Shown here: positions 28,311 through 35,094 of the stretch, piece by piece | How the letters are laid out: every line of letters begins with the position of its first letter | How positions within the stretch are numbered: the stretch's first letter is position 1 | DNA from: Haloarcula salinisoli | Lineage (GTDB): Archaea; Halobacteriota; Halobacteria; Halobacteriales; Haloarculaceae | Length of the DNA stretch: 64,000 nt | Assembly (NCBI RefSeq): GCF_019599405.1 | Contig: NZ_RKLQ01000002.1 | Coordinates: 1,059,677-1,123,676, forward strand | Direction: 5' to 3' | Position numbers and translations under genes: made by a program | The notes under the pieces: model-generated | Told to the model about the DNA's origin: nothing | What the model saw: only the letters and a program-made list of their open reading frames with translations | Database searches by the model: none

Positions 28311-30854
28311 CTACTGACCGGCGTCCCAGCTGAACAGCTCAGCCTCGACCTCGTTGTTCAGCGCTCGCAGACTGTCGCCGATGTCTTCGCCGACGGGCAT
28401 CTCCGCGCGGGCCTGTTCGATGATGCCACGGACCTCGGGGAACGGCCCCATCTGTGCGCCGTTGGTCGCGGGCGTGTCCGAGGACTCCTGGAACTGATCG
28501 AAGGCGGTGGCGAAGTGGGGGTTCTCCTCGAACCACCCCTCGCGCTTGAGCAGGTCGGCGGCGCCGTCACAGACCGGGAAGTAGCCGGTCTCGCGGTGCC
28601 AGCGGGCCTGCTGTTCCGGTTCGAGCAGCCACGCGAGGAACTCCCCGGCGGCATCTTCGACCTGCGGGTCGAGGTCGTCGCCGATCCACAGCGACGCTCC
28701 GCCGACGAGGACGCCGTTGCGCTCGTCGAGCACGGGGAGGTAGCCGGTCTTCAGGTCGAACTCGGCGCCCGACTCGATGGAGCCCAGCGACGACGTCGAG
28801 CCGATGAGCATGGCGGCTCGCTCGTCGTGGAACGTCTTTTTCGCCTTGCCGCGGGCCTTGATACCGCTGTTGTGGTATAAGCCGTCTGCCTCCATGTCGG
28901 TCCACCACTGGAAGAAGTCGTGGCCGAAGTCGCTGTCGAGGTAGGCCTTGTCGGGGACCCCGGCGCGGCCGTTCTGCTCGTTGACCAGTTCCTGGCCGGC
29001 CTCGGCGAACCACTGCTCGACGAACCAGGAGTAGTTCGCGAAGGTGATGCCGTAGTCGACCACGCCCGCGCTGACGAGTTGCTCGCTGGCCTCCCGGACC
29101 TCCGCGAAGGTCTCGGGCGGGTTCTCCGGGTTCAGGCCGGCGGCCTCGAAGGCATCTCTGTTGATACACAGCACGGGATTCGAGGAGTTGAACGGGACCG
29201 ACTGCAACTCGCCGTCGACGGTGTAGTAGTCCGAGACGGAGTCGGTCAGTGACGATTTCGAGTTCCCCGGGAGGATACGCTCGGCGGGCTTGAACGCCCC
29301 CGAGAGCCGCGCTTTCATGCTCCCGATCTCGTTTATCTGGGCGATGGCGGGCATCTCCTCGGTCCCGGCGGCGGCCAGGCTCTCGTCTAAGACCCCATCG
29401 TAGCTCCCCAGCGAGGACAGTCGGAAGTGCACCGAGCCGTGTTGGGCCTCGAACTCACGGGCGAAGTCGTGCAGGAGCAGCGACTTCGAGCCGCCCATCG
29501 CGTGCCAGAAGTCGATGACGGTGTCCCCTTTCGACATCGTGTGTTTCTGGCGCTCGCCGGTCGTGAACTGTGCGGCCGTCGACCCGAGCTCCTCGGCCCG
29601 CTCGGACATCACCCCGACCTCCTGGGTGACGTCGGTGAGCGACTCGGCCTGGCTCTCGGCGGCCTCGGCGACCGTCTCCGCTTCTGCGGTGGTCTCCTCG
29701 CTGACCGCACTGACCTCGTCGACCATCGAGACGACCGACTGCGTCGTCTCCGCCTGCTGGTCGACGGCGTTGTCTATCTCCTTGATCGAGGAGTTGACCT
29801 GGTCGATCATGTGGACCACGTCGTCGAGCCCGTCGATGGTCGAGTCCACCGCCGTGCTCGCCTGCGAGACGACGTCCTGGGTCTCGTACATATTCTCGAC
29901 GGTCGTCTCGGTCTGTTCGCGAACGTCCGAGACTGTCGAACTGATCTCGTCGGTCGCGTCCTTGGTCTCGTTGGCCAGGTCTTTGACCTCGTTGGCGACG
30001 ACGGCAAAGCCCGCGCCCGCTTCGCCGGCACGGGCCGCCTCGATGTTGGCGTTCAGCGCGAGCATATTCGTGTCGTCGGCCACGTCGTTGATGAACTCGG
30101 TAATCTCCTCGATGTCGCTCATCAGGTCAGAGAGCTGTTCGACCTGCTGGACCATCTCCTCGGTCTTGTCCTCCATCGCTTCGAGGTCCTCGATGGCCTG
30201 GGTCGCGGCCTCCTGGGCGCTGTCGCCGCTCTCGACGGAGTCTTCCGCGGTGTTTGCCACCTCCGTCGCCGAGGCTGCGACCTCTTCGATGGTCGCCGAA
30301 ATCGAGCGCATCTCGTCGCCGACCTGCTGGAGGTGTTCGTTCTGTTCGTGAGCCCCGTCGGCGATCTCGCTGATGGACTGGCTCACCTGCTCGCCTTCCT
30401 GCTCGACCTTCTCGACCTCCTGCTCGACGTCGGAGGTGGAATCGTCGACGGACGTGCTGACCTCCTTGACCTGCTTGAGCATCGTGTTCCACTCGTCGAG
30501 CATCCGGTTGTAGCTAGAGACGAAATCGACGACGGAGTCGACGTTGGAGTCGATATCTGCACGGCGAGTCAGGTCGCCCGAGGCGTTGGCGTTGACGACG
30601 CCCTGGAGCTCGGCCAGTGACCCCTCGAGGTCGTACAGTCGGTGTTGCTGGTCCTCGACGGTATCTTCGAGCTCTTCGACCCGGTTCTGGGCCTGGTCGC
30701 GCTCGTTCTCGACCTCCCTGAACTTCGCACGTAGTTCGCTGTCCGACAACGACTCGATATCCAGCGCCTCGCCGCTCTCGGATGGGGGCTCGACCACGCC
30801 ACCGTCAGGCTCCGGGTCGCCACCCGTGTTCTCACCACTGCGATTATCGCTCAT
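28311..30854 (-). CDS. Soluble MCP chemotaxis transducer fused to a UgpB-like solute-binding domain
   Basis: The protein has 847 residues and no signal peptide or membrane helix. In order: an acidic start; a coiled coil (about 36-80); a HAMP-like segment (GDLTRRADIDSN through SYNRMLDEW, about 93-123); a methyl-accepting signalling hairpin (about 140-430) with its tip at NMLALNANIEAARAGEAGAG (263-282) and GFAVVANEVKDLANET (282-297). A family-1 solute-binding domain follows (about 445-845), resembling glycerol-3-phosphate-binding UgpB: VIDFWHAMGG, SVPFNSSNPVLCINRDAF, AAMLIGSTSSLGSI. Such sensors normally sit N-terminal and outside the cell; here the domain follows the signalling domain and should be cytosolic. 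Ligand identity is inferred only from family resemblance. Confidence 0.92.
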   Translation of the reverse strand: MSDNRSGENTGGDPEPDGGVVEPPSESGEALDIESLSDSELRAKFREVENERDQAQNRVEELEDTVEDQQHRLYDLEGSLAELQGVVNANASGDLTRRADIDSNVDSVVDFVSSYNRMLDEWNTMLKQVKEVSTSVDDSTSDVEQEVEKVEQEGEQVSQSISEIADGAHEQNEHLQQVGDEMRSISATIEEVAASATEVANTAEDSVESGDSAQEAATQAIEDLEAMEDKTEEMVQQVEQLSDLMSDIEEITEFINDVADDTNMLALNANIEAARAGEAGAGFAVVANEVKDLANETKDATDEISSTVSDVREQTETTVENMYETQDVVSQASTAVDSTIDGLDDVVHMIDQVNSSIKEIDNAVDQQAETTQSVVSMVDEVSAVSEETTAEAETVAEAAESQAESLTDVTQEVGVMSERAEELGSTAAQFTTGERQKHTMSKGDTVIDFWHAMGGSKSLLLHDFAREFEAQHGSVHFRLSSLGSYDGVLDESLAAAGTEEMPAIAQINEIGSMKARLSGAFKPAERILPGNSKSSLTDSVSDYYTVDGELQSVPFNSSNPVLCINRDAFEAAGLNPENPPETFAEVREASEQLVSAGVVDYGITFANYSWFVEQWFAEAGQELVNEQNGRAGVPDKAYLDSDFGHDFFQWWTDMEADGLYHNSGIKARGKAKKTFHDERAAMLIGSTSSLGSIESGAEFDLKTGYLPVLDERNGVLVGGASLWIGDDLDPQVEDAAGEFLAWLLEPEQQARWHRETGYFPVCDGAADLLKREGWFEENPHFATAFDQFQESSDTPATNGAQMGPFPEVRGIIEQARAEMPVGEDIGDSLRALNNEVEAELFSWDAGQ

Positions 30855-31036: not shown

Positions 31037-32722
31037 TCAGGCTTCCGGCTCCATCGGGGTGACGTCGAACTGTTTCCTGAACTGCTGGACCGCCTCGTCG
31101 GAGCCGACGAGGACGATTCGCTCGTCCCCGGTGAACCGCCGCTGGGGGTCGACCGTGCTGGTGAACCCGGACTCGTCTTCGACGGCGATGACGCGACAGC
31201 CGGTCTTCTCGTAGATACCCGACCCGGCGAGTGTCGACCCCGAAAGCGGTGTCGCGGGCACGCGGAGCAACCGTATCTGGCTCGCTGGCGCGAGGACGTC
31301 CTCGCCCCGGAGCTCCATGGCGACCATCCGGGCGCTCACCTGGGGGACCGAGAGGACGTAGTCCGCCCCGGCACTCAGCGCCTTCCGTGTCGCGTCGGTG
31401 TCGCTAACCCGTGCGAGTATCTCGATATCGGGGTTCAGTGACCGCGCCAGCACGGTCGTCAGGAGCGAGGCCGAGTCGTCGGGCAGGCCGACGATGATTG
31501 CACCGGCGGTTTCGACTCCGGCTTCTTCCAGTACCTCCTCTGACCCCGCATCACCGACGATATCGACGTCCTCGCCGTCTTCGACGTCGATGGTCACGAC
31601 GTCGAGCCCCGCCTCGGAGACGACCTCCAGTGCGGCCTCACCGACCTCGCCCTGCCCGGCGATGACGATGCGCTCGTGTCTGCGGAGTGTGCGGGCCGGC
31701 TGGATGAAGTCACTGAACGCCTCCAGGGCGTCGTGTGCGCCGGAGACGAGCAACACCGTGTTCGACCGGATAATCGCGTCCGGGTCGGGCGGGAGCTGGA
31801 GTTCGCCGTCGATCCACGCACCGATGATGTTCGCGCCCGTCTTTTCCCTGATGTTGGAGTTGCGGATTCGGGTCCCGATGAGCGGGTTCCCCTGCTGAAT
31901 CGGTACTTCCGTGACCTCCAGCTCGCCGCCGAGGTCGATGGTGTCGGTCAGCTCCGAACTGAACGAGGAGACGGCCTTCTCGGCGAGGCGCTGGCCGAGC
32001 ACACCGTGGGGCGAGAGGACGCTATCCGCGCCCGTTTCGAGCAGGACGTCCCGCATATCGCTGTCGTCGGTGAGCGTGATGATTTCGATGTCGGGGTCTA
32101 CCGACCGAACCGTCAGAATCGTGTTGACGTTCGCGTCGCCGGCGTCCGTGATAACCGCCCGTGCCGAGTCGATGCTGGCTCGTTCGAACGCCGTCGCGTC
32201 CTGTGGCGAGCCGTCGATGACGGAGTAGCCGTCGTCGGCGAGGTCCTTGGCGTTCTCTTCGGACGACGAGATGAGGACGTAGTCGATACCGAGCTCCCGT
32301 AACTCGTCCAAGAGCACGGCCGAGTCACGCCGGTACTCACAGATGATGACGTGGTCTTGCTTCGGGGTGAGTCGGTTGTCCAGGTTGACTTCGGCCCCCG
32401 TAAACAGCGGGATGATGATGAGCCGGAGCGTGAAGAAACCGAGCGCGATACCGGAAATCTGCGTCCCGGCGACGAAGAGGAACATCAGCGGGTGGGTCCA
32501 GATACCCGAGTCCTGGCCGTAACCGGTCGTGGTCATCGTCTGGACGATGAACTCGAAGGACGCGAATATCGACTGGTCGACCCCCTCGAGCTGTGCCAGC
32601 GCGAGGTTGTAGGTGACGGTGTAGGCGAGGACCAGCAGTACCAGGCCGGTGAGGTAGTACGCGACGAGACGGTCCCGTCGAGAGAGCTGGATATCGGATA
32701 ACTGGTCGGGTAGGTCCACCAT
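31037..32722 (-). CDS. Two-TM potassium channel with duplicated RCK (TrkA-N/TrkA-C) modules
   Basis: In this 561-residue protein, two N-terminal membrane helices flank the K+ selectivity filter TTTGYGQ (64-70). Two RCK-type cytoplasmic modules follow: the first (about 125-330) has DHVIICEYRRDSAVLLDEL; the second (about 345-560) has ERIVIAGQGEVGEAALEVV, a full GxGxxG NAD-binding loop. The first loop reads CEYRRDS, so it may not bind NAD. It probably mediates gated K+ flux for the high-K+ osmotic strategy. The next gene upstream on the same strand encodes the UspA-APC transporter. Confidence 0.9.
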   Translation of the reverse strand: MVDLPDQLSDIQLSRRDRLVAYYLTGLVLLVLAYTVTYNLALAQLEGVDQSIFASFEFIVQTMTTTGYGQDSGIWTHPLMFLFVAGTQISGIALGFFTLRLIIIPLFTGAEVNLDNRLTPKQDHVIICEYRRDSAVLLDELRELGIDYVLISSSEENAKDLADDGYSVIDGSPQDATAFERASIDSARAVITDAGDANVNTILTVRSVDPDIEIITLTDDSDMRDVLLETGADSVLSPHGVLGQRLAEKAVSSFSSELTDTIDLGGELEVTEVPIQQGNPLIGTRIRNSNIREKTGANIIGAWIDGELQLPPDPDAIIRSNTVLLVSGAHDALEAFSDFIQPARTLRRHERIVIAGQGEVGEAALEVVSEAGLDVVTIDVEDGEDVDIVGDAGSEEVLEEAGVETAGAIIVGLPDDSASLLTTVLARSLNPDIEILARVSDTDATRKALSAGADYVLSVPQVSARMVAMELRGEDVLAPASQIRLLRVPATPLSGSTLAGSGIYEKTGCRVIAVEDESGFTSTVDPQRRFTGDERIVLVGSDEAVQQFRKQFDVTPMEPEA

Positions 32723-32856: not shown

Positions 32857-35094
32857 TTAGAACAGCCGTTCGAGCAGGCCGCGGTCGCGGTGTTTCTCCG
32901 CGAGCAGCACCGAACAGTCCACGTCGTCGACGACGTCCAGCACGAGCGAACTGGAGACGAGCCGACGGAGGAGCCCCTCTTCGGTGGCACCGATGATGAG
33001 CATCGTCGCGTCCTCGGCGGCCGTCTCGATGGCCGTCTCGACGTCGCCCGACTCGATGCGGAGGCTGGCGTCTTCGAGCCCGTGTTCGACCGCCCACTCC
33101 TGGAGGAACTGCTGGGCGTTTGCCTCGTCGTCGGCGACGTTCAGCAGCGTCACCTCCGAGTCGTACTCGGCCTGGAGCAGTTTCGCGATAGCTGCCGATA
33201 GCTCGGAGTCGGGGCCGCCGGCGGTCGGTAGCAAGATGCGCGAGGGGTCGAAGCCACGGTCCCGGAGGACGAGGAAGTCACACGGGACAGCCTCGGTGAG
33301 TTCGTCGATAGCCGACTCGGCCCGGCCGGGCGAGCCGTGCGAGTCCGGCCCCCATCCCATCACGACCTGGTCCACGTTGTGGGTGCGTGCGGCGTCGAAG
33401 ATGGCCTCGAAGGACTTGTGGGAGATGATGGTGTGGGTCTCGACCTCGACGCCGAACGTCTCGGCGTCCTCGCGAGCGCTCTCGAGCAGTCGCTCGGAGG
33501 TAGCGTCGAGCTCGTCGGCTCGTTCGGCCGCACCCGCAAGCGCCGTCTGGTCGGGGACAGTCACGATGTGGGTCGCGACGACGGTCCCCCCGCGCTGTTT
33601 CGCGATGGCGCTGGCGAGCGTGATGAGTTCCTGCTCGTTTTCCGGGTTCGCGAGCGGCACCATCACGCGGTACTGCCCGCCGTCAGGCTGGACGCCCGCG
33701 GCGGCGCTGACGGCTGCGTCGGGCATGTCCTCGGAGCGTTCGACGATGTGCTTCGAGAGGATACCCTGTTTCTCGGTGCGCGAGCGGGCGTACAGCAGAT
33801 ACCACACGACCGCCGCCGCCGCGATGCCGAATGTGAGCAGGAGGGCGTCGGTGGCGACGAACACCAGCAGCGCGAAAGAGAGGATAGCGCCCAGAATCGG
33901 CATGAGCGGGTACAGCGGGACGGTGAAGTCTGGCTGGTACTCTTCGGGGGCGACGTAGCGCATCACGATGAGCGCGAGGTTCAGCAGGCCGTAGATGATG
34001 AGGTGCAGCCCCGATGCGGCACCTGACAGCAGGGTCAGGTCGCCGACCATGATAAAGAGGAGGATGAGTCCGCCCGTGATGGCGATAGCGCGGTACGGCG
34101 TCCCGAAGCGGTCGTGAATCTCGTTGAGCGCGGGCGTGACGATGCGGTCACGGCCCATCGCGAAGTTGATTCGCGAGGAGGCGAGGATGGAGGCGTTCGC
34201 GCTGGAGGCCGTCGCCAGCAGCCCACCGAACAGCAGTGCACCGCCCATCAGCGCCCCCTGGAGATACTGGCCGACCTCGACGACGGCGATGGGGTTCTCC
34301 TGGTCACTCGTGATGACGTCCGCGATAAAGCCCTCCGGCACCGCGGCGCTCATCAGCACCAGCACCAGGGCGTAGATGACCGTCACGATGACGACGCTGC
34401 CGATGACCGCCCGCGGGAGGTTCTTGCCGGGGTCTTTGATCTCCTCTGCGACGCTGGTAATCTGGACGAAGCCCAGATACGAGACGAAGATGAGGCCGGT
34501 CGTCTCCAGCGTCGTGACCACGTCGCTGGCCGGCGGGAGGTTCCCGGGCTCGGCCCGGAGTGTCCCCAGCAGCGTGAACACTGCGAGGATACCCACGAGG
34601 ATGACGACGATGACGTTCTGGAGCCGTCCGGTCTCCTTCGCGCCGACGTAGTTTATGAGCACGAAGAAGGCCGCGCCGACCAGCGCGACGATTTTGACCA
34701 CGGACATCGACACCGGCCCGAGGCCGACCGAGCCAGAGAGGCCGAAGATGCGGGCGATATACCGACCGAATCCAACCATATAGAAGGCGCTGGCGAAGGC
34801 CAGCCCGAGCCAGTTGGCCCAGCCGGCGACCGAGCCAAAGAGTGGGCCCAGCGCGTGGTTGACGTAGTAGTACGCCCCGCCGGATTTGGGCATCGCTGTC
34901 CCCAGCTCGCTGGCCGACAGCGCGGTGAACATGGCGATGACACCACCGAGAACGAACGCGACAGACGCCATCGAGCCGGCCTTGAGGATGGCCTCACCGG
35001 GCAGGACGAAGATGCCGGCGCCGATCATCGTCCCGACGCCGATGGTCAGTGCCGCGAGGGGACCGAGGTCTTTCGCGAGTTCCTCGTCACTCAT
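32857..35094 (-). CDS. APC-family amino acid transporter with C-terminal UspA domains
   Basis: This is a 745-residue protein. Residues about 1-440 are an APC-superfamily permease with 12 membrane helices (GVGTMIGAGIFVLPGEAI is the TM1 signature). The C-terminal 280 residues contain two universal stress protein domains in tandem; neither shows a clean G-2X-G-9X-G ATP loop, so nucleotide binding is uncertain. The substrate is unknown (amino acid or polyamine). It overlaps the adjacent uspA gene by 8 nt, so uspA and this gene form an operon. Confidence 0.9.
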   Translation of the reverse strand: MSDEELAKDLGPLAALTIGVGTMIGAGIFVLPGEAILKAGSMASVAFVLGGVIAMFTALSASELGTAMPKSGGAYYYVNHALGPLFGSVAGWANWLGLAFASAFYMVGFGRYIARIFGLSGSVGLGPVSMSVVKIVALVGAAFFVLINYVGAKETGRLQNVIVVILVGILAVFTLLGTLRAEPGNLPPASDVVTTLETTGLIFVSYLGFVQITSVAEEIKDPGKNLPRAVIGSVVIVTVIYALVLVLMSAAVPEGFIADVITSDQENPIAVVEVGQYLQGALMGGALLFGGLLATASSANASILASSRINFAMGRDRIVTPALNEIHDRFGTPYRAIAITGGLILLFIMVGDLTLLSGAASGLHLIIYGLLNLALIVMRYVAPEEYQPDFTVPLYPLMPILGAILSFALLVFVATDALLLTFGIAAAAVVWYLLYARSRTEKQGILSKHIVERSEDMPDAAVSAAAGVQPDGGQYRVMVPLANPENEQELITLASAIAKQRGGTVVATHIVTVPDQTALAGAAERADELDATSERLLESAREDAETFGVEVETHTIISHKSFEAIFDAARTHNVDQVVMGWGPDSHGSPGRAESAIDELTEAVPCDFLVLRDRGFDPSRILLPTAGGPDSELSAAIAKLLQAEYDSEVTLLNVADDEANAQQFLQEWAVEHGLEDASLRIESGDVETAIETAAEDATMLIIGATEEGLLRRLVSSSLVLDVVDDVDCSVLLAEKHRDRGLLERLF

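Follow-up and report, generated by a model that had tools for sequence, protein, structure and literature searches.

The window, a 64,000-nucleotide stretch of a Haloarcula salinisoli contig, carries on its minus strand a gene that joins a chemoreceptor (MCP) signalling domain to a UgpB-type solute-binding domain (Table 1). The frame starts with an ATG at 30854 and ends with a stop codon at 28313–28311, and an alternative in-frame GTG upstream of the ATG would give an 861-residue product. Open reading frame analysis, Pfam and NCBIfam bear out the earlier note in reading here one continuous 847-residue frame with an MCP hairpin and a complete UgpB-type domain. The domain search which that note proposed returned, besides the MCPsignal match, significant hits to SBP_bac_8 (residues 465–783, E = 1e-34) and SBP_bac_1 (residues 536–750, E = 2e-17), but only a weak hit to HAMP, a domain matched at E ≤ 0.01 in 14 of 53 aligned proteins. 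The product of the neighbouring gene at 31037–32722 has two TrkA_N and two TrkA_C domains and, in the membrane part at its N terminus, a filter-like TTGYG motif; it resembles a potassium channel equipped with regulatory domains. Beyond it, 32857–35094 encodes an amino-acid permease to which a universal stress protein domain is fused; this gene adjoins the receptor gene in the closest relatives too.

Table 1 Features of the fused receptor gene, in coordinates of the window
Feature	Residues	Position	Strand	Basis or remark
Whole gene, MCP signalling domain then UgpB-type solute-binding domain	1–847	28311..30854	-	847 aa; same fusion in 43 aligned relatives
Disordered acidic N-terminus	1–32	30759..30854	-	AF2 pLDDT <50; no RR motif, no signal peptide
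N-terminal coiled-coil helix	38–91	30582..30743	-	AF2 secondary structure
HAMP-like segment (weak)	80–120	30495..30617	-	Pfam HAMP, E 0.24
Long receptor helical hairpin	106–428	29571..30539	-	AF2 helix; arms of ~22 and ~21 heptads flanking tip E278
SATIEEVAAS	186–195	30270..30299	-	Pattern scan against methylation-site consensus
MCPsignal kinase-control tip	213–384	29703..30218	-	Pfam, E 5e-42
Hairpin tip motif NMLALNANIEAARAGEAGAG	263–282	30009..30068	-	Sequence; tip residue E278
Flexible linker from receptor arm to binding domain	429–444	29523..29570	-	AF2 pLDDT <50 at 432–441
UgpB-type binding domain	445–847	28314..29522	-	Predicted pocket Y485, E509, S558, W610, S686, G719, Y758, R809; N607 replaces first clamp Trp

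The signalling tip is of the ordinary MCP type, with the conserved hairpin and its tip motif both present, and a pattern scan of the protein found one match to the methylation-site consensus. An AlphaFold2 (AF2) model of the whole chain built on 53 aligned sequences, a further check that had been proposed, places a break at the HAMP position between the coiled coil and the hairpin, and ends in a two-lobed domain whose pLDDT is mostly about 85–98. In Foldseek searches the top matches of this domain are the UgpB proteins of E. coli and Phaeobacter, at TM scores of up to 0.92 of the target. The overall pTM is 0.54, and the placement of the sensor relative to the receptor is therefore not predicted. 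By general receptor structure, a chemoreceptor hairpin returns to its start, and a domain that follows its second arm shares the end of the rod at which HAMP or a sensor ordinarily feeds in. The sensor here would accordingly sit at that HAMP end, the usual point of entry for signals. The inverted architecture proposed in the earlier note thus holds for the order of the domains in the sequence and gives way in their geometry.

The protein has the layout of cytosolic receptors with a C-terminal sensor, namely the lack of a membrane helix and a sensor placed after the MCP domain. The maximum 19-residue hydropathy mean along the chain is 0.89, below what a membrane helix needs, and the first 60 residues contain no RR (twin-arginine) motif; these two results rule out a hidden export signal or membrane anchor and agree with the earlier reading that neither signal peptide nor membrane helix is present. 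A UgpA gene lies beside none of the genes for fused proteins and is found beside exported haloarchaeal relatives. Fused binding domains contain ~0.9 cysteines on average versus zero in the exported haloarchaeal ones (n = 7), a content that fits cytosolic life. In the Halohasta, Halonotius and Natronocalculus members of the fused set (loci L022, L026, L027, L035 and L046), use of the first start codon would add a hydrophobic N-terminal stretch, which suggests a membrane-anchored variant in which the sensor is tethered and not exported.

Kinship of the sensor with UgpB extends from fold to ligand contacts. The NCBIfam UgpB model matches residues 442–815 (E = 2.6e-59) with 201 bits, below its equivalog cut-off of 411, and among solved structures the binding domain comes closest to UgpB of E. 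coli and Phaeobacter (E = 1e-50 to 3e-50). Pfam assigns the SBP_bac_1/8 fold, and UgpB is the best match in the NCBIfam, PDB and Foldseek comparisons. In Phaeobacter UgpB, glycerol-1-phosphate (G1P) or glycerol-3-phosphate (G3P) is contacted by Tyr64, Glu88, Ser143, Trp191, Ser266, Gly303, Tyr342 and Arg393 (PMC12718374). These residues align, in order, with Y485, E509, S558, W610, S686, G719, Y758 and R809 of the fused protein, the pairing of Ser266 with S686 allowing a one-residue shift, as the neighbouring motif is Ser/Thr-rich and the aligned line ran one letter long. The phosphate contacts Y485, S558, S686 and Y758, the glycerol-hydroxyl contacts E509, G719 and R809 and the clamp tryptophan W610 are each invariant in 44/44 fused proteins. 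Eight of nine UgpB ligand contacts are kept, whereas only 19% of all binding-domain positions are invariant across the same 44 proteins. The exception is the two-tryptophan clamp: UgpB Trp188 corresponds to N607 here and to Asn or Thr in all fused members, a swap that may alter affinity or ligand size. All fused proteins carry Y608 and R/Q801, and all exported haloarchaeal UgpB proteins carry H608 and V/L801, at positions that adjoin pocket contacts. The pair is a ready marker separating the two groups, which may differ in ligand preference. Solved UgpB structures do not separate G1P from G3P, so the exact metabolite is unreadable from sequence.

These differences near the pocket bear on a less likely second reading, in which the same cytosolic receptor binds another ligand such as a glycerophosphodiester, dihydroxyacetone phosphate (DHAP), a sugar phosphate or a polyol without phosphate. 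Replacement of the clamp Trp188, as occurs in proteins with larger pockets (PMC12718374), and the split between fused and exported proteins at residues 608 and 801 both speak for it, but none of the phosphate ligands (two Tyr, two Ser) or glycerol-hydroxyl ligands (Glu, Gly, Arg) has been lost. Conservation of the cleft speaks against the improbable idea that the binding domain is not itself a small-molecule sensor and instead serves as a structural tail or docks a protein partner such as GlpK, HPr or DhaM. Exported solute-binding proteins do dock on transporters or transducers, separate haloarchaeal binding proteins act with the transducers BasT and CosT (Kokoeva 2002, cited in PMC3579733), and HPr and glpK are immediate neighbours of the fusion in many relatives; yet every retained pocket residue is invariant, which would be unexpected for an unused cleft.

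The fusion is widespread among haloarchaea. A scan of one-genome-per-species contigs, with patterns drawn from one query and thus liable to miss distant cases, found more than 40 haloarchaeal homologues with the same two-domain fusion, in Haloarcula, Halomicrobium, Halorubrum, Haloferax, Halonotius, Halohasta, Natronocalculus and Halobiforma. Among the matches listed, about 70 of 391 genomes of the class Halobacteria carry the fusion, 67 as a long open frame and 3 cut or broken, in a survey of the kind suggested in the earlier note; the same one-query scan saw no fused protein outside Halobacteria. In plasmid records the only matches were to separate ABC binding proteins, at 45–47% coverage. 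Fused proteins form one clade (support 95/91) that is sister to exported haloarchaeal UgpB proteins, which carry signal sequences and have permease genes nearby. As part of the best explanation, we infer that the sensor domain was acquired from an exported protein that binds glycerol phosphate, and that it was retained inside the cell. Comparison of the window protein with three relatives gives dN/dS values of 0.05–0.34 across the MCP and binding parts, indicating that both halves are under purifying selection. An artefact or inert chimera, whether from the erroneous joining of two genes or from the decay of a fusion, is hardly credible: the gene is frame-broken at two loci (L012 and L042, a MAG contig and Halorubrum distributum), but the fusion is intact in most of the genomes listed, forms one clade and is constrained in both parts. 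Its recurrence in so many listed genomes and its single clade rule out a joining error, and none of the findings named in the earlier note as fatal to its reading (such an error, a hidden membrane segment or homologues always encoded as separate genes) appeared.

Gene context is the strongest new clue to function. In 18 of the 43 aligned fused relatives, glpK, glpA, a predicted glycerol transporter or dhaKLM lies within 5 kb; assignment of the transporter is itself a prediction from genome context (PMC3102087). Haloarcula and Halomicrobium share the layout glpCBA<-|fusion->glpK, with the fusion divergent to glpABC and ~130 bp upstream of glpK, and with the predicted glycerol transporter and an Orc/Cdc6-like gene after glpK. 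In Halohasta, Halonotius and Natronocalculus the order is glpK-transporter-orc-fusion-HPr(-PtsI, dhaMLK), with HPr immediately downstream of the fusion; in several copies PtsI and dhaMLK, which encode dihydroxyacetone kinase, adjoin as well. A third layout, in genome G076, sets the fusion ~2.3 kb from glpK. Because two or more different arrangements place the fusion beside the same genes, they argue for a functional association over mere inheritance. Copies in Halorubrum and most of those in Haloferax are not beside glycerol genes, and no shared metabolic theme was seen around the Halorubrum, Haloferax and Halobiforma copies. All 70 fusion genomes contain glpK versus 343 of 391 overall (88%), a comparison uncorrected for kinship of the genomes and, with glpK so common, nearly uninformative as evidence. 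The Orc1/Cdc6-like protein (L013, 9026–10198, and its equivalents), which scores below its family cut-off, is consistently part of the glpK-transporter cluster.

Neighbourhoods also bear on the choice of ligand. With glpK directly downstream and glpA divergent, the position of the fusion speaks for G3P; a ligand other than glycerol phosphate would gain from the dihydroxyacetone PTS genes beside the fusion in Haloferacaceae and from the glycerophosphodiesterase (GDPD) genes near exported relatives (L044, 4054–4752; L058, 9280–9945), which suggest that the exported proteins import glycerophosphodiester products.

The window copy itself lies beside secY, away from glycerol genes, and the copies of its nearest relatives lie beside secY or trkA. 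Elsewhere in the window genome, glpA and glpK stand head to head across a 1.09-kb gap (G000:C1:1030000-1049000, L119), the site at which most Haloarcula relatives carry the fusion gene, and we found no receptor-gene remnant in this gap. Since the fusion is present as a single copy and groups with Haloarculaceae fusions in the tree, the simplest account of the position of the window copy is relocation. The genome has three glpK genes, two of them further full-length copies at G000:C2:838000-851000 (L120) with a second Orc-like gene and a transporter gene between them.

Chemosensory arrays may serve roles other than swimming. That the receptor is functional but feeds another output, for instance a regulatory array for a different process, is nevertheless very unlikely here: the window genome carries archaellin genes, CheW-domain genes and seven MCP genes (six besides the fusion), and the signalling tip is an ordinary one.

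Our preferred reading, to which we assign a probability of roughly 0.6, is that the gene encodes a soluble chemoreceptor that steers the archaellum and uses a cytosolic UgpB-type flytrap to sense intracellular glycerol phosphate, so reporting glycerol catabolism. In outline, glycerol would enter the cell and GlpK would convert it to sn-glycerol-3-phosphate, the most likely ligand, with the related G1P or DHAP as other candidates. Binding would close the Venus-flytrap pocket, and closure would act through the 429–444 linker on the receptor dimer's C-terminal arm, beside the HAMP-like segment, altering how the arms pack. CheA activity at the tip would then change and the archaellum switch rate would follow, so that swimming would be biased by how fast glycerol is taken up and phosphorylated, and not by external glycerol as such. 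The components and their conservation are read directly from the sequence, and from them we infer the ligand, the closure, the coupling and the direction of the response. The proposal in the earlier note of a cytosolic receptor for an internal solute, perhaps a glycerol phosphate, gains from the pocket, the glp/dha linkage and the presence of the fusion in ~70 genomes among the matches listed, and its ligand remains a prediction.

Because the gene sits among glycerol-catabolism genes in many relatives, cells probably steer by the amount of glycerol being metabolised. We give about even odds to the wider proposition that haloarchaea steer by intracellular glycerol-3-phosphate, having moved a binding protein into the cytosol, fused it to a receptor and placed it in the glycerol regulon as a sensor of catabolic flux. 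If true, the receptor would read that flux directly and not a nutrient outside the cell, and a binding fold of the periplasmic type would have been put to new use in sensing a metabolite inside the cell. The candidate makes metabolism-dependent glycerol taxis directly testable, since its ligand is predicted, its pocket is mapped and some of its relatives belong to motile genera and are in culture.

Comparison with known systems sets the fusion among familiar parts. It shares its fold (TM 0.92), 27–30% sequence identity and 8 of 9 ligand contacts with UgpB, which binds G3P for the Ugp ABC transporter (E. coli 4aq4/6x84, Phaeobacter 9lff). Unlike UgpB, it is not exported, has no adjacent transporter genes, is fused to a receptor and has Asn in place of the first clamp Trp (Thr in some relatives). 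BasB and CosB of Halobacterium are separate proteins that work with the membrane transducers BasT and CosT. The fusion resembles BasT/BasB and CosT/CosB in making a solute-binding protein part of haloarchaeal chemotaxis (Kokoeva 2002, cited in PMC3579733) and differs in that the binding protein is fused and internal. Car, named in PMC3579733 as the cytosolic arginine transducer of Halobacterium salinarum, is likewise a haloarchaeal soluble transducer that reads an internal nutrient, although its signal differs. The earlier note knew of no experimental description of the architecture, which does have precedents. C-terminal sensors on cytosolic receptors are established in TlpD of Helicobacter pylori (PMC12871147), and SBP_bac is one of the sensor families in a published archaeal MCP census, which also records some sensors at the C terminus and whose main text gives no protein, ligand, gene context or mechanism for the SBP_bac entries (PMC9680633). 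Like TlpD and other such receptors, the fused protein is soluble and carries its sensor after the second hairpin arm; the TlpD sensor is a zinc-binding CZB domain, whereas here it is a two-lobed solute-binding domain of ~400 residues. The open-licence literature yielded no account of the fused receptor, of the class of its ligand or of its linkage to glycerol genes. What is new here is an intracellular UgpB sensor tied to glycerol catabolism, with the glycerol-gene linkage in 18 relatives.
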